Shown here: positions 7,578 to 46,860 of the stretch, one piece after another
How positions within the stretch are numbered: position 1 is the first letter of the stretch
Layout: each line of letters starts with the position of its first letter
Source: Embleya scabrispora DSM 41855
Lineage (GTDB): Bacteria > Actinomycetota > Actinomycetes > Streptomycetales > Streptomycetaceae
DNA: 64,000 nt
NCBI RefSeq assembly: GCF_000372745.1
Contig: NZ_KB889669.1
Span: 1-64,000 of the forward strand
Direction: 5' to 3'
The notes under the pieces: model-generated
Told to the model about the DNA's origin: nothing
Databases searched by the model: none
The model's input: only the letters and a program-made list of their open reading frames with translations
Position numbers and translations under genes: made by a program

Positions 7578-8258
7578 TCAGGGCTCGAACTTGTACCCGA
7601 GACCGCGCACCGTGACCAGGTAGCGCGGGGCGCCCGGGTCCGGCTCGATCTTGGCGCGCAGCCGCTTCACGTGCACGTCGAGCGTCTTGGTGTCGCCCAC
7701 GTAGCCGACACCCCACACCCGGTCGATCAGCTGCATCCGGGTCAGCACCCGGCCGGCGTTGCGCAGCAGCACTTCGAGCAGGTCGAACTCCTTGAGCGGG
7801 AGGTCGATCCGCCGACCCTCCACGGTGACCCGATGCGCCTCCACGTCGAGCCGCACCGGCCCGGCCTCGATCGCCCGGGGCTCGTCGGTGGGTTCGCCGC
7901 CCTGGCGCCGCAGCACGGCGCGGATCCGGGCGATCAGCTCGCGCGTGGAATACGGCTTGGTGACGTAGTCGTCGGCGCCGATCTCCAGACCGACGACCTT
8001 GTCCACCTCGCTGTCCTTGGCCGTCACCATGATGACCGGCACGTTGGACTTGGCCCTGAGCCCGCGAAACACCTCCGTGCCGGGCAGGCCGGGCAGCATC
8101 AGGTCGAGCAGCACCAGGTCGGCGCCGCCCTGGTCGAACAGCTCCAGGGCCTCGGGTCCGGTGGCGGCGACGGCCACCTCGAAGCCTTCCTTGCGAAGCA
8201 TGTACGACAGCGCGTCGCTGAAGGACTCTTCATCTTCGACGACGAGCACACGGGTCAT
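7578..8258 (-). CDS. phoP: Response regulator PhoP (OmpR family, phosphate regulon)
   Basis: A 226-residue OmpR-family regulator. The receiver domain has acidic residues E8/D9 and the phospho-acceptor D52 in LVLLDLMLPG, with Thr/Lys switch residues in VTAKD and VTKPYS. A winged-helix DNA-binding domain follows (LPLKEFDLLEVLLRNAGRVLTR, DVHVKRLRAKIE). Its pairing with the kinase next door and its position beside carD match Streptomyces PhoP, the activator of pst, ppk and related genes through PHO boxes. Its ATG overlaps the stop of phoR by 4 nt. Confidence 0.93.
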   Translation of the reverse strand: MTRVLVVEDEESFSDALSYMLRKEGFEVAVAATGPEALELFDQGGADLVLLDLMLPGLPGTEVFRGLRAKSNVPVIMVTAKDSEVDKVVGLEIGADDYVTKPYSTRELIARIRAVLRRQGGEPTDEPRAIEAGPVRLDVEAHRVTVEGRRIDLPLKEFDLLEVLLRNAGRVLTRMQLIDRVWGVGYVGDTKTLDVHVKRLRAKIEPDPGAPRYLVTVRGLGYKFEP

Positions 8259-9445
8259 CGTGAAGCCTCCATGGATGGGGTCGACGATGTCATCGACATC
8301 GATTGAGAGGTACTGGACTTGAAGGGCAGCACCAGGGTGAAGGTGGATCCCACACCCTCCAGGCTGCGCACGGTTACCTCTCCCCCGTGGCCCGCCGCGA
8401 TGTGCTTGACGATGGACAGACCCAAGCCGGTACCGCCGGTGGCCCGCGAACGGGCCGGATCGACGCGGTAGAACCGCTCGAAAATTCGGTCCAGGTCGCG
8501 CTGGGGAATGCCCAGCCCCTGGTCGGAAACGGTGATGACGGCCATCCGCGCCTCGGCTCTGACCTCGATGTCGACCCTCGTCCGCGCGGGACTGTAATTG
8601 ACCGCGTTCTCCACGAGGTTGCCCAGTGCCATCACCAGTTGATTGTGGTCCCCCGGCACGATCAGCTCGCGATCTCCGCCGATCGCCAGGGTGATCTGCT
8701 TGGATTCGGCGGCCTGTCGGCAGCGGTCGGCGGCCTCGGCCACCAACTCGTCGAGCGGCACCGGGCCCACGTGATGCAGCGGATGATCGTTTTGCACCCG
8801 GGACAGATCGATCAGCTCCTGCACAAGGTTGGTCAGCCGGGCCGACTCGATCTGCATGCGACCCGCGAAGCGGATGATCGCCTCGGGGTCGTCGCTGGCG
8901 TCCATGACCGCCTCGGCCAGCAACGACAGCGCACCGACCGGGGTCTTGAGCTCGTGGCTCACGTTGGCCACGAAGTCGCGGCGCACCGCGTCCACCCGGC
9001 GGGCCTCGGTACGGTCCTCGACCAGCAGCAGCACCAGCCGCGACCCCAGCGGCGCGACCCGGGCGGACACCTCGAACTCGTGCGCCTCCCCGTCGGCGCG
9101 GGCCAACAACAGATCCCGCTGCCTTATCTCGCCGTCGCGTCTGGTCTCCTTCGCCATCGCGAGCAGATCGGCGGGCACCAGTTGGTCCCCGCGGACCAGG
9201 CCGAACTTGTAAGCCGCCGAACTCGCCTTCACGACGGTGTCGAACTCGTCCAGGACCACCGCCGAGGAGCGCAGCACGGACAGCACCGTGGCCACTCCGG
9301 GCGGCAGCGACGGGGCCGCGGCAGCCGCCGCGGCCGTGCCTCTGCCCTGGGCCCGCTCACTCCAGCGGAAGGCCAGGGTGCCGGCCACACCCACGGCCAA
9401 TCCGGATACAGCGGCCAAAGCGGCAGCAGCAACGTTCACGTCCAC
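8255..9445 (-). CDS. phoR: Phosphate-sensing histidine kinase PhoR (SenX3-like)
   Basis: A membrane histidine kinase of 396 residues. A single N-terminal helix (about 3-27) anchors it and a PAS-like region spans about 55-145. The dimerisation helix carries the phospho-acceptor H164 in FVANVSHELKTPVG. The ATPase domain has the N box (GNLVENAVNYS), G1 (VSDQGLGIP), F box (IFERFYR) and G2 (GGTGLGLSIVKH). Only one membrane helix and no extracellular sensor match Streptomyces PhoR. GTG start. In other streptomycetes phoU is divergent from phoR; here a small Cys-rich gene takes that place. Confidence 0.92.
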   Translation of the reverse strand: MDVNVAAAALAAVSGLAVGVAGTLAFRWSERAQGRGTAAAAAAAPSLPPGVATVLSVLRSSAVVLDEFDTVVKASSAAYKFGLVRGDQLVPADLLAMAKETRRDGEIRQRDLLLARADGEAHEFEVSARVAPLGSRLVLLLVEDRTEARRVDAVRRDFVANVSHELKTPVGALSLLAEAVMDASDDPEAIIRFAGRMQIESARLTNLVQELIDLSRVQNDHPLHHVGPVPLDELVAEAADRCRQAAESKQITLAIGGDRELIVPGDHNQLVMALGNLVENAVNYSPARTRVDIEVRAEARMAVITVSDQGLGIPQRDLDRIFERFYRVDPARSRATGGTGLGLSIVKHIAAGHGGEVTVRSLEGVGSTFTLVLPFKSSTSQSMSMTSSTPSMEASR

Positions 9446-9506
9446 ATGTTCCAGGGTAGAGCTGCTCCGAACGGGTGAAACCGTCCAGAGGGTCCATCGT
9501 GCAGAT

Positions 9507-9528
9507 CTTCATGTGTCGTTCATCCGTG
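9507..9528. promoter_or_regulatory. Candidate PHO box between phoR and the metallothionein-like gene
   Basis: Two adjacent 11-nt units, CTTCATGTGTC (9507-9517) and GTTCATCCGTG (9518-9528), match the spacing and partly the consensus (GTTCAYC-type) of PhoP-binding direct repeats. The second unit is good and the first is weaker. The site lies 38-59 nt before the small Cys-rich gene and about 62-83 nt before phoR, where it could act on both. This is a pattern match only. Confidence 0.45.
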
Positions 9529-9565
9529 CGCCACGCCTGTCACCGGTGATCGTTCGGAGGTCGTC

Positions 9566-9691
9566 ATGCCCGACCCGCAGACCCCACCCCAGCCGCAGGC
9601 CCCCACGCCGGGCTGCAACTGCCCGTCCAGCTGCGGCTGTGGCTGTAAGTCCGGTTCCGCATGCAATTGTGGGGGCAGTTGCGGTCGCTGA
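9566..9691 (+). CDS. Metallothionein-like Cys-rich small protein (41 aa)
   Basis: An ATG with a perfect GGAGG (9556-9560) 5 nt upstream opens a 41-residue frame ending in TGA. The first 16 residues are Pro/Gln-rich. The rest has eight cysteines at positions 17, 19, 23, 25, 27, 33, 35 and 39 in C-x-C clusters (CNC, CGCGC, CNC) separated by Gly/Ser/Asn, with no hydrophobic core. This is the composition of a metallothionein that would bind several Cu(I), Zn or Cd ions. It is not obviously a homologue of mycobacterial MymT. A hairpin follows at 9721-9765. It lies where phoU is found in other streptomycetes, next to a possible PHO box. Confidence 0.75.
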   Translation: MPDPQTPPQPQAPTPGCNCPSSCGCGCKSGSACNCGGSCGR

Positions 9692-9720
9692 ACCGGCGCT
9701 CGGGTCCACGAGCCCGGCGC

Positions 9721-9765
9721 GCGCGGGGCGCCCGACCCCTTCCGTGACAGGTGGGCGCCCCGTGC
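9721..9765. terminator. Convergent hairpin terminator
   Basis: The arms 9721-9733 and 9753-9765 pair over 13 positions with one G-T wobble and a 19-nt loop. It lies between the metallothionein-like gene and the end of gpm on the other strand. Confidence 0.65.
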
Positions 9766-9798
9766 GGAGCCGATGGGATGTTCACCCGATGTTCGTAC

Positions 9799-10557
9799 CT
9801 ACTTGCGGCCCTGGTTCTTGACCGCCTCGATCGCGGCCGCGGCCGCCTCCGGGTCGAGGTAGCGCCCGCCCGGGGTGAGCGGGCGCAGGTTCGCGTCCAG
9901 CTCGTACAGCAGCGGGATGCCGGTGGGGATGTTCAGACCCGCGATGTCGGCGTCCGAGACCTTGTCCAGGTGCTTGACCAGGGCGCGCAGCGAATTGCCG
10001 TGCGCGGCGACCAGGACGGTGTCGCCGGCGAGCAGGTCCGGCACGATCGCGTCGTACCAGTACGGGAGCATGCGCTCGACGACGTCCTTGAGGCACTCGG
10101 TGCGCGGCCGGATCTCCTGCGGCAGCGACGCGTACCGGCGGTCGGCGAACTGCGAGTACTCGTCGTCGTCCGCGAGCGGCGGCGGCGGGGTGTCGTAGGA
10201 GCGACGCCAGAGCATGAACTGCTCCTCGCCGAACTCCTCCAGGGTCTGCTTCTTGTCCTTGCCCTGGAGGGCACCGTAGTGCCGCTCGTTGAGCCGCCAC
10301 GAGCGACGCACGGGCAGCCAGTTCAGGTCGGCCACGTCCAGCGCGAGCTGGGCGGTGCGGATCGCGCGGCGCTGCAGCGAGGTGTGCAGAACGTCCGGCA
10401 GCACGCCCGCGTCGAGCAACAATTGCCCGCCGCGCGCGGCCTCCTTCTCACCCTTTTCGGTCAGGTCGACATCGACCCAGCCGGTGAAAAGTCCGGCTTC
10501 GTTCCACTTGCTTTCGCCATGCCGCAGAAGGATCAGTTTGTAGAGAGCATCAGCCAT
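9799..10557 (-). CDS. gpmA: 2,3-bisphosphoglycerate-dependent phosphoglycerate mutase
   Basis: A glycolytic mutase of 252 residues interconverting 3- and 2-phosphoglycerate. The phosphohistidine motif is [20 protein letters not shown] near the N-terminus. The partner Glu is in [12 protein letters not shown] and the second His in [13 protein letters not shown]. The ATG at 10557 has a TAGGCT hexamer (10570-10565) ending 7 nt upstream, suggesting a leaderless mRNA. It follows mshA and the YbjN gene on the same strand but appears to have its own promoter. Confidence 0.96.
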
Positions 10558-34762: not shown

Positions 34763-36940
34763 ATGAACGCCGAGAACCCCGCCGCTCGATCCTCCCGACA
34801 CCTGACCGTGGCCGTGCCGCCCGCGAAGGCCGGCGGCACGAACCCGGTCGCCGCGGCCCCGCCGCGATCGGAGGACGGGTTGCCGTTGGACCGGTTTCTG
34901 GACCGGGAGGGCAGCTGGCTGGCGTTCAACGAACGTGTGCTCGAACTCGCCGAGGACCCGAGCACACCGCTGCTGGAGCGGGCGCGATTTCTGGCCATCT
35001 TCGCGTCCAACCTCGACGAGTTCTTCATGGTCCGGGTGGCCGGTCTCAAGCGCCGGATCGCCACCGGTCTGGCGGTGCGCGCCGCCAGCGGCCTACAGCC
35101 GCGCGAGGTGCTGGAGAACATCTGGTCGCGCAGCCGCGCACTGATGGCCCGGCACTCCACGTGCTTCCACCACGACGTGCTGCCCGCGCTCGGCGAGGCC
35201 GACATCCAGTTGTTGCGCTTCGACGACCTGACCGACGGCGAGCGGCAGTCGTTGTACGCGCTCTTTCGCGAGCGGGTCTTCCCGGTGCTCACCCCCCTGG
35301 CGGTGGACCCGGCGCACCCGTTCCCGTACATCTCCGGCCTGTCGCTGAACCTGGCCGTGATCGTGCGCAATCCGCGCTCGGGCAACGAGCACTTCGCCCG
35401 GGTCAAGGTGCCGCCGCTGCTGCCGCGCTTCGTGGAGACCTCGCCGGCCCGCTTCGTGCCGCTCGAGGAGGTGATCGCCGAATTCCTCGGCGACCTGTTC
35501 CCGGGCATGGACGTGCTGGGCCACCACGCCTTCCGGGTCACCCGCAACGAGGACCTCGAGGTCGAGGAGGACGACGCGGAGAACCTGCTCCAGGCGCTGG
35601 AGCGGGAGTTGATGCGCCGGAGGTTCGGCCCGCCGGTCCGGCTCGAGGTCGAGGAGACCATCGACCCGCACGTGCTCGACCTGCTGGTGCGCGAGCTGGG
35701 CGTGGGCGAGAAGGAGGTCTACCCGCTGCCCGGTCCGCTCGACCTGACCGGTCTGCACGCGATCGCCGACCTGGACAAGCCCGAGCTCAAGTTCGGCCGC
35801 TTCGTCGCCGGCACCCATCGCGACCTGGCCGAGGTGGAGACCGCGCAGGCCGCCGACGTGTTCGCCGCGATGCGCAAGCGCGACATCCTGGTCCACCACC
35901 CCTACGACTCGTTCGCCACCTCGGTCCAGGCGTTCCTGGAGCAGGCCGCGGCCGACCCGGACGTGCTCGCGATCAAGCAGACCCTGTACCGCACCTCGGG
36001 CGACTCGCCGATCGTGGACGCGCTGGTGGACGCGGCCGAGTCCGGCAAGCAGGTACTGGTCCTGGTCGAGCTCAAGGCCCGCTTCGACGAGCACGCCAAC
36101 ATCACCTGGGCGCGCAAGCTCGAGCAGGCCGGCTGCCATGTCGTGCACGGCGTGGTGGGGCTCAAGACGCACTCCAAGCTGTGCCTGGTGGTCCGCCAGG
36201 AGGGCGACACGCTGCGCCGCTACTGCCACATCGGCACGGGCAACTACAACCCGAAGACGGCCCGGCTCTACGAGGACCTGGGCCTGCTGACCGCCGACCC
36301 GCAGGTCGGCGAGGACATGTCGAACCTGTTCAACCGGCTCTCCGGCTACTCGCGCGCGCAATCGTTTCGGCGGTTGCTGGTGGCCCCGCACTCGTTGCGC
36401 AACGGGCTGGTCGAACGGATAGAGCGCGAGGCGGCCAACCACGAGCAGGGGCTGCCGGCGTACGTCCGGCTCAAGTCGAACTCGCTGGTCGACGAACTGG
36501 TGATCGACGCGCTCTACCGTGCCTCGCAGGCCGGCGTCCCGGTCGATCTGTGGATCCGGGGCATCTGCGCGCTGCGCCCGGGCGTTCCCGGTCTGTCCGA
36601 GACCATCCGAGTGCGCAGCATTCTCGGCCGATTTTTGGAACACTCCAGAGTGTGGGTGTTCGCCGGCGGGGGCGAACCGGAGGTGTGGATCGGCAGTGCC
36701 GACCTGATGCACCGCAACCTGGACCGCAGGGTCGAGGCGGCGGTGCGGTTGCGCGGCGATCGACACCGCGACGAGATGACGTCCTTCATGGACCTGGGGA
36801 TGAGCGCGGAGACCGCGTCCTGGCACCTGGACCGGGACGGCACCTGGACCAGGCACGCAACCGCTGCCGACGGCAGCCGGCTTCGTGACGTGCAGGAGCA
36901 CCTCATCGAGACCCGGAGGCGCAGACGTGGGCCGGACTGA
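34763..36940 (+). CDS. ppk: Polyphosphate kinase 1
   Basis: A 725-residue PPK1 that makes polyphosphate from ATP. The N-terminal domain begins [20 protein letters not shown]. The C-terminal PLD-like domains carry the autophosphorylated His in [13 protein letters not shown], then [20 protein letters not shown], and the second His in [17 protein letters not shown] start; GACAAT lies 6 nt upstream, so it may be leaderless. It overlaps the CHAD gene by 14 nt, linking polyphosphate synthesis to a polyphosphate-binding protein. Confidence 0.97.
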
Positions 36941-37910
36941 GCAGACGACCGGTATTCCTCGGCAGCGCGCGGCGGCCGAGGACACCTCGGCCGGCGCGAT
37001 CCTGCTCGCCCATCTGGTCGGGGAGGCCGGCGCGTTCATCGACCAACTGCCCCGGCTGAGCGCGGGCGAGGAGGAGGCCGCGCACAACGCGCGGGTGGCC
37101 GCCCGGCGGATCCGCAGCGCGCTGGCCACGTGCGGGCCGCTGCTGGAGCCGGAGCCCGCCGCGCGTCTGCGCGCTCGGCTGCGCGAGGCGGCGGACGCCT
37201 TGGCGGGCGAGCGGGACGCCGAGGTGCTGCTGGAGCGACTGTCGGCCGACCTGGACACGCTGCCGGAGCGCCCCGGCTCGGCCCGGGCCCGGGCGATCGT
37301 CACCCGCCGACTGCGCGGCGATCTGGGCGCCGGGCGGACCCGCGCGCTGACCGCGCTCGGCTCGGGAGTGTTCACCACGCTGTCCGCGGACCTGGTGGAG
37401 CCGGCTCTGGGCCTGACGTTCACCAAGCGGGCCGCGGCGCCGGGCGCCGAACTCGTGCCCGGGTTGGTCGCCCGGACGCTGCGCCGGCTGGACCGCGCCG
37501 TCGACGCGCTGCCGCTGGCGGCGGCGGGCGAGCCCTATCCGGCGGACCGCGCCGGGTTCACGCCCTACGCGGGCACCGACGACGACGCCTGGCACCGGGT
37601 GCGGATCCTGGCCAAGCGGGCCCGCTACGCGGCCGACATGTGCGTGCCCGCGTTCGGCCCGCCGGCCGCTCGGTTGGCCAGGCGGCTCAAGGCGGTGACC
37701 GAGGTGCTCGGCGTGCACCAGGACGCGACCATCGCCGCCGACGCGGTCGCCGCACTCGCGGCCGGCCCCCGGGTCGGCGGGCCCGCCGCCTTCGTCCTGG
37801 GCGAGTTGTACGCGCACGAGCGGCGGGTCGCCACGGCTCAGCGGTACGCGTTCACCCGGGTGTGGCCCAGGGCGGGCGCCCCGGAGGCGCGGGCGTGGCT
37901 CGATGGATGA
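36927..37910 (+). CDS. CHAD-domain protein (polyphosphate-binding)
   Basis: A 327-residue helical protein with the conserved basic/His signature of CHAD domains: [16 protein letters not shown] in the first half and [17 protein letters not shown] in the second. Such domains bind polyphosphate granules. The GTG at 36927 has GGAGG 8 nt upstream and overlaps ppk, so translation is probably coupled. It is followed by a Nudix gene that overlaps it by 8 nt. Confidence 0.92.
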
Positions 37911-38715
37911 CCCTGCTCGGGTCACGCACCCCGACCACCACCCGGTACTCGCCGCGGGCGCGGTGTTGTGGCGTCGGGTGGGGGACGCGGTGCAGGTCGG
38001 GTTGGTGCATCGGCCGCGCTACGACGACTGGTCCTTCCCCAAGGGCAAGCTGGAGCCGGGCGAGCCCGCGGTGGTGGCCGCGGTCCGCGAGATCGCCGAG
38101 GAGACCGGGTATCGGGCCATTTTGGGGCGCGAGCTGGGCATGCGCAGTTATCCGTTGCGCTCGCGCGATCGACTCAAGGTCAACCGCTACTGGGTCGCCG
38201 AGGCGGTCGCGGGCGAGTTCGTCGCCAACCGGGAGGTGGACCGGATGTGGTGGGGTCCGCCGGAGCAGGCCGCGACGCTGACCGGGACCCCGGACTACAC
38301 CGCGTCGCTGACCGACGCGTTCCGCACCGGGCCGCCGCCCGCGACGGTGCCGGTTCTGGTGCTGCGCGCGGGCCCGGCGTTCGCCCGAGACCTGGTGCCG
38401 ATGCTGGCCGCGTTCGGACCGGTCGAGGTGTACGGCTGCGCGGAGCCGGCCGCCGCCGCGACGGTCGAGCCCTATGTCACGGCCGTGGGCGCGCGGGTGT
38501 GGGCGACCTCGTGCTCGGTGGCCCAGGCGCTGCGCGGCGGCCGGCCGACCCTGCTGTGCGCACCCGTTCCGGACCTGCCCGGCGCCGCCCCCGGGGTCGG
38601 TGCCACCCGGCTGGCCGCCGAACCCCTGTTGCCCGGGGAGTTCGTCGTATTGCACGCCTGGGCGGGTCGAGTCGTGGCCATGGGCCGTTACGCTCCCTAC
38701 CCGACGGGAAGCTGA
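37903..38715 (+). CDS. MutT1-like Nudix hydrolase with degenerate C-terminal phosphatase-like domain
   Basis: A 270-residue protein. The N-terminal Nudix domain has a perfect Nudix box ([23 protein letters not shown], about 49-71), as in enzymes that clear oxidised or polyphosphate-type nucleotides. The C-terminal half starts [12 protein letters not shown] where mycobacterial MutT1 has an RHG histidine-phosphatase motif; here the catalytic His and the RHG are lost, so this half is probably structural. It is the third gene of the ppk-CHAD-Nudix unit. Confidence 0.88.
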
Positions 38716-39003
38716 GCACTTGGTCAAGCCGTTGTCACGGTTTGCCCAACGTCACACTGCGTGCATCTGAACATCGGATGAACAAAATTCGGCCTGCGCG
38801 ACAAAGCCCCAGTTCACGGGTAGTAAATGCGCACATGAGCGGACAATTCATCCAGCGGTCGGCTTATCTGACTCGACCGTTCGAGTTCACCCTCGGTTCA
38901 CTTTGCGCGGCGGATCGCTTCATTCTCACGGCCTAACTTCATGGGAGACGGCGCCCGTTCGGGACGCCGCACCACGAGTTGAGTTCGATCGAAAGGGAGC
39001 GCC
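38716..39003 (+). other. pstS promoter region
   Basis: A 288-nt region, AT-rich for this genome, between the Nudix gene and pstS. It contains a clear PHO box and several other TTCA-type half sites (for example TTCACGG near 38812 and TTCATCC near 38847). Confidence 0.7.
38885..38906 (+). promoter_or_regulatory. PHO box (PhoP-binding direct repeats) upstream of pstS
   Basis: Two contiguous 11-nt units, GTTCACCCTCG (38885-38895) and GTTCACTTTGC (38896-38906), match the GTTCAYC-type direct repeat of Streptomyces PHO boxes. They lie about 98-119 nt before the pstS start. This should be the site where PhoP activates pstSCAB when phosphate is scarce. A possible -10 TAACTT is at about 38934. Confidence 0.85.
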
Positions 39004-40149
39004 GTGACCATTCGGCCCCGCAGTGTCCGTCGCGGTATCGGCTTCACCGGCCTGGCACTCGCCGGCGCGCTCACGCTGGCCGCGTGTGGCTCCGACGACA
39101 ACAGCTCGGGTGACGACAAGAAGTCGTCGACGAAGGCCGCGGCGGCCCCCGGCGCCGAGGCCCCCAAGGGTGACTGCGGCACCGGCAAGCTCGCCGCCGC
39201 CGGCTCCAGCGCCCAGAAGAACGCGATGGACGAGTGGATCAAGGCGTACCAGGCCAAGTGCTCGGGTGCCTCGATCGACTACGCGTCCTCGGGTTCGGGC
39301 ACCGGCCGTCAGTCGTTCTTCGACAAGCAGGTCACCTTCGCCGGCTCCGACTCGGCGCTCAAGCCGGAAGAGGTCGCCAAGGCCGGCGCGGCGTGCGCCC
39401 CCGGCCAGGCGATCAACCTGCCGATGGTGACCGGCCCGATCGCGATCGCGTACAACGTCTCCGGCGTCAAGGACCTGACCCTGGACGCGAAGACGATCGC
39501 GGGCATCTTCTCCGGCAAGATCACCAAGTGGGACGCCGCCGAGATCAAGGCGCTGAACCCGAACGCACAGCTGCCCGGCACCGCGATCCAGACCGTGCAC
39601 CGCTCCGAGGCCTCGGGCACCACCGAGAACTTCACCAAGTACCTCAAGGCCGCGGCCGGCGCCGACTGGACCTTCGACGCGGCCCAGGACTGGAAGGCCC
39701 CGGGCGGTCAGGGTGCCAAGGGCAGCGAGGGTGTCGCCTCCATCGTGAAGTCGACGCAGGGCGGCATCAGCTACATGGAGCAGTCCTACGCGGAGAACTC
39801 CGGCCTGGGCATCGCGCAGATCAACACGGGTGCGGCGGCTCCGGTCAAGCTCACTCCCGAGGCGGCGGGCAAGGCCGTCGAGGCGGCCAAGATCGTGGGC
39901 CAGGGCAACGACCTGAAGCTGTCGGTCGACTACGCGACCAAGGCCGAGGGCGCCTACCCGATCATCCTGGTCACCTACGAGATCGTCTGTGAGAAGGGCA
40001 CCGCCGCGGACAAGCTCCCGCTGCTGAAGTCCTTCCTCAACTACACCTCCAGCGCCGAAGGCCAGAAGGTCCTCGCGGGCATCGGCTACGCGCCGCTCCC
40101 GACGACGGTCGCGGACAAGGTTCGCGCCGCCGTGGCCGGTCTGTCCTAG
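39004..40149 (+). CDS. pstS: Phosphate-binding lipoprotein PstS
   Basis: The substrate-binding subunit of the high-affinity phosphate ABC importer, 381 residues. The signal peptide ends in lipobox LAAC with the lipid-modified Cys at 28. The phosphate-binding loops include GKLAAAGSSAQKNAMDEWI, SGSGTGRQSFF, FAGSDSALKPEE and HRSEASGTTENFTKYL. GTG start with GGGAG upstream. Its PHO box marks it as a PhoP target, and pstCAB follow. Confidence 0.97.
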   Translation: MTIRPRSVRRGIGFTGLALAGALTLAACGSDDNSSGDDKKSSTKAAAAPGAEAPKGDCGTGKLAAAGSSAQKNAMDEWIKAYQAKCSGASIDYASSGSGTGRQSFFDKQVTFAGSDSALKPEEVAKAGAACAPGQAINLPMVTGPIAIAYNVSGVKDLTLDAKTIAGIFSGKITKWDAAEIKALNPNAQLPGTAIQTVHRSEASGTTENFTKYLKAAAGADWTFDAAQDWKAPGGQGAKGSEGVASIVKSTQGGISYMEQSYAENSGLGIAQINTGAAAPVKLTPEAAGKAVEAAKIVGQGNDLKLSVDYATKAEGAYPIILVTYEIVCEKGTAADKLPLLKSFLNYTSSAEGQKVLAGIGYAPLPTTVADKVRAAVAGLS

Positions 40150-40186: not shown

Positions 40187-41182
40187 ATGTCCACCACCAC
40201 TCCCACCGCACCGGCGGAACCCGAGCGCAAGGCTCCCGCGGCCAAGCGCACCAAGGTTCGGCCAGGCGACCGGATCTTCTCCGGTGCCGCCCGCGGCGCC
40301 GGCATCAGCCTGCTCGCCATCATGGCCGCGATCGCGATCTTCCTCGTGGTCAAGGCGACGGACGCACTGTCGAAGAACCAGGGCAGCTTCCTGACCGACC
40401 AGGGCTGGGACCCGAACACGGCGAAGCCCGCGTTCGGTGTCGTCACGCTGGTGTTCGGCACGGTTGTCAGCGCCACCATCGCGATGCTCATCGCGGTGCC
40501 GGTCGCGGTGGGGGTGGCGCTGTTCATCACGCACTACGCCCCCCGGCGGATCGCCCAGACACTCGGCTACATCATCGACCTGCTGGCCGCGGTGCCCAGC
40601 GTGGTCTACGGCCTGTGGGGCTACATCTTCCTGGCCCCCAAACTGCTCGGCCTGCACTCGTGGTTGTCCGACTACCTCGGTTGGATCCCGGTGTTCGACA
40701 AGGAGCAGGCGGGCGTCACCGCGCGCACGCTGTTCACCGTCGGCATCGTGCTGGCCATCATGATCCTGCCGATCATCGCGGCGGTCACCCGTGAGGTCTT
40801 CCTCCAGGTGCCCCGCGCCCACGAGGAGGCCGCGCTCGCGCTCGGCGCCACCCGCTGGGAGATGATCCGGGTCGCGGTGCTGCCCTACGGCAAGCCCGGC
40901 ATCATCAGCGCGTCGATGCTCGGCCTCGGCCGCGCGGTCGGCGAGACGATCGCGGTCGCGATGGTGCTCTCGCCCAGCTTCGACCTCTCGATCCACATCC
41001 TGGACCCGGGCAACACCACGATCGCGGCGAACATCGCGAACCAGTTCGGTGAGTCCAACGAGATCGGCCGCGGCGCGTTGATCGCCTCCGGCCTGGTCCT
41101 GTTCATCATGACGCTGCTCGTCAACGGCGCCGCGCGCGTCGTCATCAACCGGCGCAAGGCGTTCTCTGGAGCGAACTCATGA
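40187..41182 (+). CDS. pstC: Phosphate ABC transporter permease PstC
   Basis: A 331-residue permease with six or more membrane helices. The coupling-helix EAA loop is [28 protein letters not shown], followed by [16 protein letters not shown], typical of PstC. ATG start with a purine-rich AGAGAG just before it. Its stop overlaps the pstA start by 4 nt. Confidence 0.96.
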
Positions 41183-42288
41183 CCGTCCTGGACACGGGCG
41201 ACAAGCGCCCGGGCATCGGTACGGACGCGGTCGAGGTCGGTCGCGCGGGTCTGGCGGATCCGCGGGCGGCGTCGCTGACCCGCCGGACCCTGCCGCGCCA
41301 GGTGCCGTGGGCGATCGCCGGCGGCGGCGTGCTGCTGACGATCGTGTTCAAGCTGACCCTGGACAACTGGGCACTCGCGGTCTTCCTCGCCGGGGTGATC
41401 TTCATCGGCGTCCTGTCCGCCGTCTCGTGGCGGTTCGAGGACGCCCGCCGGGCCCGGGACCGGTTCGCCACCAGCCTGATCTCCACCGCGTTCGTGCTCG
41501 CCGTGCTGCCGCTGGTGTCGGTGCTCGGCTACACGATCCAGCGCGGCTACGGCAAGCTGTCGCCGTACTTCCTGTCCCACTCGATGCGCGGCGTGGGCGC
41601 CCGGGACGACACCGGCGGCATCTACCACGCGATCATCGGCACCCTGGAGCAGGTCGGCCTGGCCGCCCTGATCGCGGTTCCCATCGGTCTGCTCACCGCG
41701 ATCTACCTGGTCGAGTACGGGCGCGGTCGACTGGCCAAGACGGTGACGTTCTTCGTCGACGTGATGACCGGTCTGCCGTCGATCGTCGCGGGTCTGTTCA
41801 TCTACGCCTTCTGGATCATGATGCTCGGCTTCCAGGCCTCCGGCTTCGCCGGGTCGCTGGCGCTGATGATCCTGATGTTGCCGACGGTGGTGCGCTCCGC
41901 CGAGGAGATGCTCAAGCTGGTCCCGAACGAGCTGCGCGAGGCCAGCCTGGCGCTGGGCATCCCGAAGTGGCGCACCGTGCTCAAGGTGGTGCTGCCCACC
42001 GCGTTCGGCGGCATCGTCACCGGCGTGATGCTCTCCATCGCCCGCGTGATCGGCGAGACCGCCCCGCTGTTGCTGCTCGTCGGACTCACCCAGTCGATCA
42101 ACACCGACCCCTTCTCGGGGTGGCAATCGGCGCTGCCGCTGTACGTGTTCGACCAGAACCACGCCGGCAACCAGTTCGCCGAGGACCGGGCCTGGGCCGC
42201 GGCGCTCACGCTGATCGTCATCGTCATGATCCTCAACCTGGCGGCGCGGCTGATCGCCCGCTGGAAGGCACCGAAGGCGGGCCGATGA
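41179..42288 (+). CDS. pstA: Phosphate ABC transporter permease PstA
   Basis: A 369-residue permease, longer than many PstA proteins because of an N-terminal cytoplasmic stretch of about 45 residues and two extra helices before the transport domain. The EAA loop is [28 protein letters not shown] and the following helix contains [15 protein letters not shown]. Its ATG overlaps the pstC stop (ATGA). Confidence 0.95.
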
Positions 42289-42350: not shown

Positions 42351-43127
42351 ATGACCAAGCGCATCGAAGTTTCCGGACTCAACGCCTACTACGGCTCGCA
42401 CAAGGCCGTCGAGGACATCTCGATGACCATGGAGCCGCGTTCGGTCACGGCCTTCATCGGTCCCTCCGGCTGTGGCAAGTCCACCTTCATCCGCACCCTG
42501 AACCGCATGCACGAGCTGATTCCGGGCGCCTCGGTGGACGGGTCGGTCGCGCTGGACGGTCAGGACCTGTACGGCAGCGAGATCGACCCGGTCGCGGTCC
42601 GCCGCACGGTCGGCATGGTCTTCCAGCGGCCCAACCCGTTCCCGACCATGTCGATCTACGACAACGTCGCGGCCGGGCTCAAGCTCGCGGGGATCAAGCG
42701 CAAGGGCGACCTGGACGCGATCGTCGAGCGTTCGCTGCGCGGCGCGAACCTGTGGACCGAGGTCAAGGACCGGCTGAACAAGCCCGGCGCGGGCCTGTCC
42801 GGCGGCCAGCAGCAGCGACTGTGCATCGCGCGGGCGATCGCCGTCGAGCCGCAGGTGCTGCTGATGGACGAGCCGTGCTCGGCACTCGACCCGATCTCCA
42901 CGCTCGCGATCGAGGACCTGATCGCGCTGCTCAAGGAGCGGTACACGATCGTCATCGTGACCCACAACATGCAGCAGGCCGCGCGCGTCTCGGACAAGAC
43001 CGCGTTCTTCAACCTCGCCGGTCCGGGTCAGCCCGGTCGGCTGGTGGAGATCGGCGACACCGAGACGATCTTCTCGGCACCCACCGAGGAATCGACGGCG
43101 GACTACATCGCCGGCCGGTTCGGCTGA
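42351..43127 (+). CDS. pstB: Phosphate ABC transporter ATPase PstB
   Basis: A 258-residue ATPase. Walker A is GPSGCGKST, the Q-loop [12 protein letters not shown], the signature LSGGQQQRL, Walker B VLLMDEP and the switch His VTHNMQQ. The ATG at 42351 begins [15 protein letters not shown], as in other actinobacterial PstB; an upstream ATG at 42285 overlaps the pstA stop and would add 22 non-conserved residues. Last gene of pstSCAB, followed by a terminator. Confidence 0.95.
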
Positions 43128-43163
43128 GCGCGGAAGCGTCGACGGACGGCGGCGATGGACATG

Positions 43164-43201
43164 CGTGAGGGCCCACACCGGGACGGGTGTGGGCCCTCAC
43201 G
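43164..43201. terminator. Convergent terminator between pstB and pit
   Basis: Perfect 16-bp arms at 43164-43179 and 43186-43201 with a 6-nt loop, 37 nt after the pstB stop and 70 nt from the pit stop. Confidence 0.85.
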
Positions 43202-43271
43202 TTCGATGTCTCGCCCGCGGGCCGGATGCCCCGTACGTCCTGCATTACGTACGCGGCGCGTGGTCCGCGGA

Positions 43272-44267
43272 TCAGCCCACGATCAGGTGGGCAATCCAGT
43301 ACACGCCGGCCGCGACCAACCCGGCGGCCGGCATCGTGGTGAACCAGCCGATCAGGATGTTCTTGGCGACGCCCCAGCGCACCGCCTTGACCCGCTTGGT
43401 CGCGCCCACGCCCATGATCGCCGAGGTGATGATGTGCGTGGTGGAGATCGGCGCCTTGAAGACGTAAGCCGTGGTGTACAGGATCGAGGCGGCCGTGGTC
43501 TCGGCCGCGAAACCCTGCGGCGGGTCCAGCTCGATGATCTTGCGGCCGAGCGTGCGCATGATCCGCCACCCGCCCGCGTAGGTGCCCAGCGACAGCGTGA
43601 TGGCGCACGCGAGCTTGACCCACACCGGGATGCCGTCGCCCTGCTGATGACCGCTGATCACCAGCGCCATCACCACGATGCCCATCGTCTTCTGGGCATC
43701 CTGGATACCGTGCCCGAGCGCCATGCCGGCCGCCGAGACGGTCTGCGCCAGCCGGAAGCCGCGCTTGGCCTTGTGCGGGTTGGACTTACGGAACAACCAG
43801 ATGATCCCGACCATCACCAGATAGCCGGCGACCAGGCCGACCACCGGCGACAGGAACATCGGGATGACGACTTTGTCGAGCACACCGTTCCAGTAGACGG
43901 TGCTGGAGCCCGCGAGCGCGGCGCCGACCAGGCCACCGAACAGCGCGTGCGACGAGGACGAGGGCAGTCCGAAGTACCAGGTCAGCAAATTCCAGAAGAT
44001 CGCGCCGACCAGCGCCGCGAACAGGATGACCAGGCCATCCTTGCCTTCGGGGGTGGCGATCAGCCCTTCGCTGACGGTCTTGGCGACGCCTTCGCCGAGA
44101 AAGGCGCCCGCGAGGTTCATCACCGCGGCCATGGCCAGCGCCGCCCGCGGCGTCAGTGCCCGAGTGGACACCGAGGTCGCGATGGCGTTGGCCGAGTCGT
44201 GGAAGCCGTTGGTGTAGGTGAAGAAGAGCGCGACGCCGATGACGATGATCAGACCAGTGAGTTCCAC
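43272..44267 (-). CDS. pit: Low-affinity inorganic phosphate transporter Pit
   Basis: A 331-residue PiT-family carrier importing metal-phosphate by proton symport. The N-terminal repeat has FTYTNGFHDSANAIATSVSTRAL and the second repeat YVFKAPISTTHIITSAIMG. WNLLTWYFGLPSSSSHALFGGL is also diagnostic. GTG start, 4 nt after the stop of the DUF47 gene, so the pair forms an operon, equivalent to pitH2 and its partner in Streptomyces. Confidence 0.96.
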   Translation of the reverse strand: MELTGLIIVIGVALFFTYTNGFHDSANAIATSVSTRALTPRAALAMAAVMNLAGAFLGEGVAKTVSEGLIATPEGKDGLVILFAALVGAIFWNLLTWYFGLPSSSSHALFGGLVGAALAGSSTVYWNGVLDKVVIPMFLSPVVGLVAGYLVMVGIIWLFRKSNPHKAKRGFRLAQTVSAAGMALGHGIQDAQKTMGIVVMALVISGHQQGDGIPVWVKLACAITLSLGTYAGGWRIMRTLGRKIIELDPPQGFAAETTAASILYTTAYVFKAPISTTHIITSAIMGVGATKRVKAVRWGVAKNILIGWFTTMPAAGLVAAGVYWIAHLIVG

Positions 44268-44271
44268 TGGG

Positions 44272-44892
44272 TCAGGACTCCTTGACGGCGATCGTCTCGA
44301 CCGTGTTCGCCACGTGCTCGAACCCGTCGGCGGCCTCTTCGAGCACGTCGACGATGCCCTTGAGCTTGAGCACGGTCAGCGCGTCGTACGCGCCACTGAA
44401 CAAATGGGCCAGGAGCTTGCGGTGGATCTGGTCGGCCTGGTTCTCGAGTCGGTTGATCTCGATCCAGTACTCGGTCAGGTCCTTCATCGTGCGCAGCCGG
44501 GGCATCGCCTCGGCGGTCAGCTCCGAGGCCCGGACCAGCACCTCGATCTGATCGGCCACCTGCGGCGGAAGCTCGTCGAGCTGATACAGCACGACCAGGT
44601 CGACGGCCTCTTCCATGTAGTCCATGACATCGTCCAGTTGCGAGGCGAGGGCGTAGATGTCCTCGCGGTCGAACGGGGTGATGAAGGAGGCGTTGAGCTG
44701 GCGCATGATCGCATGCGTGGTGTCGTCACCGGCATGCTCGGCCGCGCGCATCCGTTCGGCGATCTCCGGACGAGCGGAGACCTCTGCGCCGAGCAACTCC
44801 GTCAGGAGCTTGGATGCGGTGACCAGGTTGCTCGCCGCTGCGGCGAACATGTCGTAGAAGCTCGTCTCCCTGGGGGTCAGACGCAATCGCAC
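44272..44892 (-). CDS. DUF47 (PhoU-like) accessory protein of Pit
   Basis: A 206-residue all-helical protein of the DUF47/PhoU-like group. Metal-ligand-rich stretches are RAAEHAGDDTTHAIMRQL and PFDREDIYALASQLDDVMDYMEE, and LKGIVDVLEEAADGFEHVANTVE closes the second bundle. Such proteins pair with Pit and probably regulate it. GTG start at 44892. It is the only PhoU-related gene in the window. Confidence 0.93.
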   Translation of the reverse strand: MRLRLTPRETSFYDMFAAAASNLVTASKLLTELLGAEVSARPEIAERMRAAEHAGDDTTHAIMRQLNASFITPFDREDIYALASQLDDVMDYMEEAVDLVVLYQLDELPPQVADQIEVLVRASELTAEAMPRLRTMKDLTEYWIEINRLENQADQIHRKLLAHLFSGAYDALTVLKLKGIVDVLEEAADGFEHVANTVETIAVKES

Positions 44893-45987: not shown

Positions 45988-46860
45988 TCAGCCGCGTCGC
46001 GCGGGTGTCCGGGACGGGCTCGGCGCGACGTACAGGTCCTTGGCCTCGGGCGGCTTGACGTCGACCACCACGCCGAAGTCGTACAGCTCCGCCGCGGAGA
46101 GCACCTTCGCGGTCGGTGCCGCCTTGCCCTGATCCGGGCCCATCGCGAAGGCGAACGACTCCTCGACCTTGCGCAGCCGCCCGGCGTCGTCGAGGTAGGC
46201 GTCGAACGGAATCGGCGCGCCGTCGAAGGTCTTGAGCGCGGCGGCCAGCGGGCCGCGCACCTCCGGCGCGGTCAGGTCGTGCGCCTTGCGGATGTCGAGG
46301 GTTCCCTTGTAGTGCCGCACCGTGTCCGCGCCCAGCTTCTCGGTCCCCACGAGCACCACGTCGTCGTTGACCCCGCGCAGTATCTCGAAGGACGTCCCGG
46401 GGTCGGTCGCACCGCCGCTGACCAGGTTGCCGTCGGCCAGCCCGTCGATCGCCAGCCGCACCCACTTGTCCTTGGGCACGCCCGGCGACCCGTTCTTCAT
46501 GTAGAGCGCGTCGGGGGTGAGGATCTCCTGGAGCGGGCCGGCGATGCCGGAGTCCTTGGGCGCGTCCACCGTGAGCGAGCCGATGTGCCGGACGTAGTCG
46601 AACATGCCCTGCCCGGTGAGCTTGACCACCCGGTCGGCGTTTTGCATGGTCATCGTGGTGCGGGTGCGCGAACTCTTCGCGCCGGTCGTGACATCGGCCG
46701 CCCTGCGGACCGCCAGGACCGCTGCGGGCGGGCCGTTCGATGCCCCGGCGCTGCCCTTGACCTGCGCTCCCTGAGGTTGCACGTCGTCGCCCTGACAGCC
46801 GGCGGCCCCGGCCAGGAGGAGCGCACAGCAGACACCCGTGAGCGCGGTACGGACCAACAT
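45988..46860 (-). CDS. LppX/LprAFG-like lipoprotein
   Basis: A 290-residue lipoprotein with lipobox AAGC (Cys22). The LolA-like beta-sheet domain of the LppX/LprG group is suggested by TRTTMTMQNADRVVKLTGQGMFDY, PDALYMKNGSPGVPKDKWVRLAI and GRLRKVEESFAFAMG. Mycobacterial relatives carry lipids or lipoglycans to the outer envelope; here the cargo is unknown. Confidence 0.82.
   Translation of the reverse strand: MLVRTALTGVCCALLLAGAAGCQGDDVQPQGAQVKGSAGASNGPPAAVLAVRRAADVTTGAKSSRTRTTMTMQNADRVVKLTGQGMFDYVRHIGSLTVDAPKDSGIAGPLQEILTPDALYMKNGSPGVPKDKWVRLAIDGLADGNLVSGGATDPGTSFEILRGVNDDVVLVGTEKLGADTVRHYKGTLDIRKAHDLTAPEVRGPLAAALKTFDGAPIPFDAYLDDAGRLRKVEESFAFAMGPDQGKAAPTAKVLSAAELYDFGVVVDVKPPEAKDLYVAPSPSRTPARRG

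Follow-up and report, generated by a model that had tools for sequence, protein, structure and literature searches.

How did a metallothionein-like gene come to lie directly beside phoR, at the place where phoU is found in Streptomyces? In the window, as the whole stretch of 64,000 nucleotides from Embleya scabrispora DSM 41855 analysed here is called, the gene for the sensor kinase PhoR (8255..9445, minus strand) encodes HisKA and HATPase_c domains, with a PAS-like region from the TM to HisKA assigned by position only, and its end is overlapped by phoP (7578..8258, minus strand), encoding a response regulator with Response_reg and Trans_reg_C domains. Beyond a divergent intergenic region of 120 bp (9446..9565) an open reading frame of 41 codons starts on the plus strand (9566..9691), convergent with the phosphoglycerate mutase gene gpm (9799..10557, minus strand; His_Phos_1). 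In E. coli and mycobacteria, PhoR is said to respond to phosphate by way of the negative regulator PhoU (excerpt of PMC12301784); for Streptomyces, PhoU is given as a negative regulator of phoRP (excerpt of PMC7244524), and phoU deletion mutants are reported to grow poorly and often to gather compensatory mutations in phoR, phoB or pstSCAB (excerpt of PMC9218956). An earlier note on this DNA had suggested that a metal-binding peptide replaced phoU, or else that phosphate starvation and metal handling are linked here. The account proposed below, in which mtpA would have remained in its ancestral place and phoU would have been lost, together with a suggested role and control of MtpA, is in our view very probable as a whole. 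The clade-wide loss of phoU beside mtpA is the unusual fact; as a family gene the metallothionein is unremarkable and has been little studied, and the gene and its phosphate link are already known (passages in PMC2267785, PMC3282765 and PMC7866108).

The mtpA gene and its product

The open reading frame at 9566-9691 translates to MPDPQTPPQPQAPTPGCNCPSSCGCGCKSGSACNCGGSCGR, with eight cysteines among 41 residues arranged as CxCx3CxCxCx5CxCx3C, and is preceded by a perfect GGAGG ribosome-binding site (9556..9560, plus strand) 5 nt before the ATG, which is aligned across 11 rows of the clade of two genera described below, reading GGAGA in one of them. The pattern CxCx3CxCxCx5CxCx2-3C near a C terminus has a single match in the six-frame translation of the window, which is this very reading frame, and only 5 of 99,847 stop-free 23-residue windows in the 64 kb contain at least eight cysteines. 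Moreover, dN/dS lies between 0.01 and 0.11 in seven Embleya-type gene pairs that differ in protein sequence, with dS saturated in some and with L010 and L021 being the same genome, and between distinct Embleya-type species the 25-residue cysteine core shows zero or one replacement against 6-13 silent changes. The reading frame is a real gene under purifying selection. What the earlier note had seen, a metallothionein-like protein divergent from phoR and behind a perfect ribosome-binding site, is borne out in these respects. Its terminator fared less well: a GC-rich, terminator-like hairpin does exist (9715..9766; -36.2 kcal/mol, z -3.2) but has no T run, and since it sits between two convergent genes it is probably shared with gpm and not mtpA's own.

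Curated profiles offer no family for the product, as the window MtpA matched none at E <= 1 in Pfam or in NCBIfam, and no solved relative was found in the PDB at E <= 10. Could the peptide then be a RiPP precursor or a signal peptide? An N-terminal part rich in Pro and after it a C-terminal part rich in Cys, Gly and Ser, the former varying between species, would suit such a product, but the part that is conserved is the cysteine core and the profile-checked neighbours phoP, phoR and gpm encode no modifying enzymes, which makes this explanation very improbable. In the second genus of the clade (L022, L023, L012) the N-terminal part is about 20 residues longer and the cysteine core nearly the same.

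mtpA in its usual place

Is the gene a newcomer to the locus? In S. coelicolor mtpA, phoU, phoR and phoP are listed as SCO4227, SCO4228, SCO4229 and SCO4230 (excerpt of PMC2267785), and in Streptomyces WAC07094 mtpA is described as lying directly downstream of phoU and divergent from phoRP (excerpt of PMC11019849). The earlier note was therefore right that S. coelicolor holds phoU at this place, but it had missed that mtpA is also present beside it. For a comparison of loci the 80 with the PhoR closest to that of the window were taken out of 535 confirmed relatives, so that the sample leans to near relatives. Four of the 80 are without phoU, namely those of Embleya hyalina, of two Yinghuangia and of L020, which is labelled Streptomyces sp. 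SID3343 and has a PhoR 94-95% identical to the window's. The other 76 (Streptomyces, two Wenjunlia and one Actinacidiphila) contain phoU, and in every one of these named loci mtpA is found together with it, phoU being the one nearer phoR; both the cysteine spacing and the place between phoU and gpm match the window mtpA in 76/76 (71 copies were found by a strict cysteine pattern, the remaining 5 by a looser one). The same gene order occurs in loci of other Streptomycetaceae genera. The gpm side and the phoR side of the window locus are thus both as in Streptomyces and phoU itself is gone; the place of 9446-9565, next to phoR, is taken in Streptomyces loci by phoU together with the region upstream of it.

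Judged by its sequence and neighbours, the window gene is the ortholog of the known Streptomycetaceae mtpA, in its usual place. It shares with SCO4227 of S. coelicolor and S. lividans the eight-cysteine core spacing and the neighbourhood of the phoU-phoR-phoP locus, but differs in standing next to the divergent phoR without a phoU separating them, in the short N-terminal part of its 41 residues and in the motifs CNCPSSC and KSGSACNC, which in most Streptomyces copies read CGCGSGC and QSGxPCQC. Likewise, the window resembles the Streptomyces mtpA-phoU/phoR-phoP locus, as far as excerpts of PMC11019849 and PMC7866108 describe it, in phoR-phoP, in mtpA, in a PHO-like box in the divergent region and in an unlinked pst, whereas phoU is missing both in the window and in the seven clade genomes searched. 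A search with the window MtpA gave 81-86% identity in the second genus and 52-65% in other genera of the family, with E values down to 9e-4; at E <= 0.001, 12 of 61 genomes match and 49 do not. Within about 1.5 kb on each side of 15 phoU loci outside the family (L100, L106, L108, L112-L114, L116-L118, L120, L121, L123, L125-L127), searched with the strict pattern only, no mtpA was found. Homologues with the same cysteine spacing thus occur in Streptomycetaceae beside the pho locus, a neighbourhood check that the earlier note had proposed.

These comparisons bear directly on the suggestion that a metal-binding peptide moved in where phoU had been and perhaps also took on its function. It is true that phoR now has mtpA as its immediate divergent neighbour and that no phoU was found in the genome. 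Yet mtpA and phoU coexist in all 76 PhoU-bearing named loci and in other genera, with gene order and cysteine spacing unchanged, and deletion of phoU accounts for the window arrangement without any replacement. A replacement of phoU by mtpA is therefore rejected as most improbable: in the Streptomycetaceae loci examined, mtpA normally stands beside phoU. The preferred reading is that mtpA would have stayed where it was in the ancestor, flanked by gpm and the pho locus.

The earlier note had further held that the genes between gpm and phoR of S. coelicolor are absent here. This applies to phoU; the others need no loss, because in loci of several further family genera (L101, L103, L107, L109, L110, L111, L119, L122, L128) gpm directly adjoins mtpA, which makes the additional genes in many Streptomyces look inserted. 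In many Streptomyces (e.g. L025, L032) gpm is kilobases away from mtpA, the stretch between them being a variable insertion site. Ten of the 76 loci carry mtpA in inverted orientation with respect to phoU (L024, L029, L066, L069, L070, L077, L082, L093, L097, L098; about 4.5-5.1 kb), and read-through from phoU can therefore not be general.

Loss of phoU in two genera

The gap of 120 bp between phoR and mtpA is too short for phoU, whose absence from this place the earlier note had recognized, and the search of the whole genome that it had recommended returned no PF01895 match either (draft of 190 contigs, 98.34% complete). The same holds for all four genomes of the window's genus and all three of the second genus, whereas 386 of 394 family genomes drawn contain PF01895, the eight misses being these seven and one genome that is 71% complete. 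Since several loci and genomes lie on the same contigs (G001 = L021, G003 = L020, G004 = L022, G030 = L023), the clade amounts to seven species. In addition, a search of the seven genomes with a Streptomyces PhoU protein found no match better than E 0.02, the best being 27% identity over 91 residues inside an open frame of 979 residues; in the control genome G006 the same search reached E 4.7e-110.

Draft assemblies could of course miss phoU, and the window genome is such a draft; some fragmented genomes of the class also show apparent absence of PhoU. A phoU that escaped notice, through an assembly gap or through strong divergence, would nevertheless have had to do so in every one of the seven species of the two genera, even in G020, assembled as a single contig, and in G002 with its 8 contigs, at a locus that is continuous and has no room for it, and with a negative protein search as well, and this explanation is scarcely credible. 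In trees of PhoR the phoU-less sequences are monophyletic, which makes a single loss the simplest account. We infer from these genome comparisons that phoU, once between mtpA and phoR, was almost certainly deleted once, in the common ancestor of both genera, with phoR-phoP and Pst being kept. The open-access literature searched contained no report of a phoU loss in this clade.

Apparent absence of PhoU occurs elsewhere too. PF01895 was found in 136 of 148 genomes of the class, and in 120 of 127 once completeness of 90% or more and contamination of 5% or less are required; some of the genomes that miss it are fragmented. Six class genomes at least 90% complete and without PF01895 (G060, G426, G440, G443, G488, G521) may be independent losses or assembly gaps. 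Outside the class, Bacillus subtilis, the one of 14 control genomes that was not among the 13 matching PhoU, likewise combines a PhoR-PhoP system with a genome without a PF01895 match; its PhoR signal is named as a teichoic-acid intermediate (excerpt of PMC7866108).

Phosphate genes retained without phoU

What is left of phosphate control and uptake in the clade? The window carries ppk and the genes of a CHAD protein and a NUDIX protein (together 34763..38715, plus strand), called pptA-like and nudA-like after names in an excerpt of PMC7866108, followed on the same strand by pstS (39004..40149; PBP_like_2), two permease reading frames (40187..42288; BPD_transp_1), which are pstC and pstA by position, and pstB (42363..43127; TIGR00972 above cut-off), and then on the minus strand by a DUF47/PhoU_div gene (44272..44892). 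This arrangement from ppk to DUF47 is much as described for Streptomyces in the excerpt of PMC7866108. Two further reading frames of the pst stretch, at 43155-44285 (plus) and 45988-46860 (minus), have no match in Pfam. PstB is above the cut-off in 61 of 61 genomes, those of the seven clade species included.

The DUF47 gene is present in all seven clade genomes. As a new substitute for PhoU it was rejected: the gene is ordinary in the family, being found in 54 of 61 relatives, and almost all of these possess PhoU as well.

A clade of large-genome actinomycetes that lacks phoU and keeps PhoR, PhoP and Pst makes silencing of PhoR without PhoU directly testable. PhoR of this clade is probably switched off without PhoU, by another route.

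Changes in PhoR

Has PhoR itself changed in the absence of its partner? Between 104 rows from PhoU-bearing loci and 11 phoU-less rows (7 species), seven PhoR columns are at least 93% uniform in the former and different in 11/11 of the latter (80, 111, 267, 303, 307, 360 and 372); five of them are in the HATPase domain, and E303 and W360 are uniform in all PhoU-bearing rows with a letter there. An excess of lineage-specific changes was rejected as a count, since the clade stem, of length 0.336, carries 7 such columns and the similarly long stem of the order-level genus g19 (0.371), tentatively taken for Catenulispora, carries 31. Change is spread unevenly over PhoR: in a tree of 54 sequences the clade stem makes up 5.6% of the PhoR tree length in the CA domain, 2.9% in the PAS-like region and 0.6% in HisKA, and the g19 stem 3.0%, 4.0% and 5.7%, respectively. 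The CA (ATP-binding) domain is one of the two surfaces that PhoU has been modelled to touch in enterobacteria. A concentration of PhoR changes in this domain is a weak lead only, because it concerns one branch only.

It should also be noted that the PhoR of E. coli, a partner of PhoU, carries E at 360, V at 372 and a residue other than R at 267. V372 is the residue of the phoU-less clade, and only E303 is common to E. coli PhoR and the PhoU-bearing rows; the E. coli residues at 360 and 372 argue against the idea that W360 and R372 contact PhoU in general. Among the coupled CA residues of PMC4423584 only D316 adjoins a changed site, 267. A more far-reaching scenario would make Embleya and Yinghuangia natural phoU-null actinomycetes whose PhoR is silenced without PhoU, whose CA domain changed fastest on the branch of the loss (E303V/I above all, W360R, R372V, R267H) and in which mtpA took over the freed PHO-box promoter, so that a formerly PhoP-independent gene came under the direct control of PhoP; taken together, this is rather unlikely.

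A possible role of MtpA

What could MtpA do at low phosphate? From the number and spacing of its cysteines, MtpA would be expected to bind metal, and a soft thiophilic metal, Cu(I) or Zn(II), which it would buffer at low phosphate, is the somewhat favoured assignment. More likely than not, MtpA would act as a small thiolate buffer for Cu(I)/Zn(II), with its eight cysteines, and would be made when phosphate, and thus polyphosphate, runs low. In WAC07094 the mtpA promoter is described as answering to magnesium and not to zinc or manganese, so that a zinc role is not favoured, and mtpA as dispensable for the saquayamycin phenotypes tested (excerpt of PMC11019849). A different hypothesis, voiced in an excerpt of PMC7866108, places PhoU and MtpA in oxidative-stress sensing or resistance. 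The second idea of the earlier note, a link between phosphate starvation and metal handling, remains plausible, a metallothionein-phosphate link being in print (passages in PMC2267785, PMC3282765 and PMC7866108).

The region between phoR and mtpA

If phoU is gone, what drives mtpA? The earlier note had pointed to a possible PHO box between phoR and mtpA, and a possible, weak one was located: a PHO-box-like pair of 11-nt units, 11 bp apart (ATCTTCATGTG TCGTTCATCCG; 9505..9526, plus strand), recovered by weight matrix and alignment. The matrix was built from 206 units of 76 Streptomyces-type phoR-phoU regions, which are closely related and make it over-sharp, and with it the pair scores 3.2 (8.0 for one unit and -4.8 for the other) against 31.0 for the strong box upstream of pstS (GAGTTCACCCT CGGTTCACTTT; 38883..38904, plus strand), the top-scoring site of the window. 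The pair ranks 7th of 255,894 placements in the window, and four of the six that outscore it are in the nudA-pstS region. Shuffling the 120-bp region gave an equal or better score 44 times in 2000, and 3 of 1055 other 120-bp pieces of the window reached it too, the pst box and target pieces being left out. Box scoring in the clade covered 6 of 10 rows, and L020, L023, L011 and L013 were included in the alignment instead; in 11 aligned rows of both genera a core CTTCAY-N5-GTTCAYC is kept, and much around it drifts. A BLAST search of the intergenic region against E. coli genomes gave no match.

The pair ends 39 bp before the mtpA start in the window, which suggests that mtpA may have inherited a PhoP-controlled promoter region. 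With phoU removed, mtpA would begin just past the PHO-like box and may answer directly to PhoP; such direct responsiveness is a real possibility, if slightly less than an even one. It would be a change, since mtpA of Streptomyces is described as induced by phosphate limitation in a PhoP-independent way (excerpt of PMC3282765, citing Ghorbel 2006). The box is weak, and it could serve phoR rather than mtpA. About equally tenable, therefore, and again a little short of even, is that the box belongs to phoR only or is a chance match and that the mtpA promoter is PhoP-independent as in Streptomyces, unaffected by the loss of phoU. Besides the description of Streptomyces mtpA, this is favoured by autoregulation of phoRP by PhoP from a promoter upstream of phoR (excerpt of PMC7244524) and by the low score of the box with its 44 equally good shuffles; the distance of only 120 bp between phoR and mtpA and the repeat units reading toward mtpA on the plus strand tell against it. 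In the second genus (L022, L012) mtpA starts about 170-180 bp past the box, compared with 39 bp in the window, and may keep a promoter of its own.

A second conserved island lies closer to phoR, at 9467-9479 (CCGAACGGGTGAA, reverse TTCACCCGTTCGG); it is preserved across the 11 rows of the alignment, apart from a single change in L012, and may be a single PhoP unit facing phoR.
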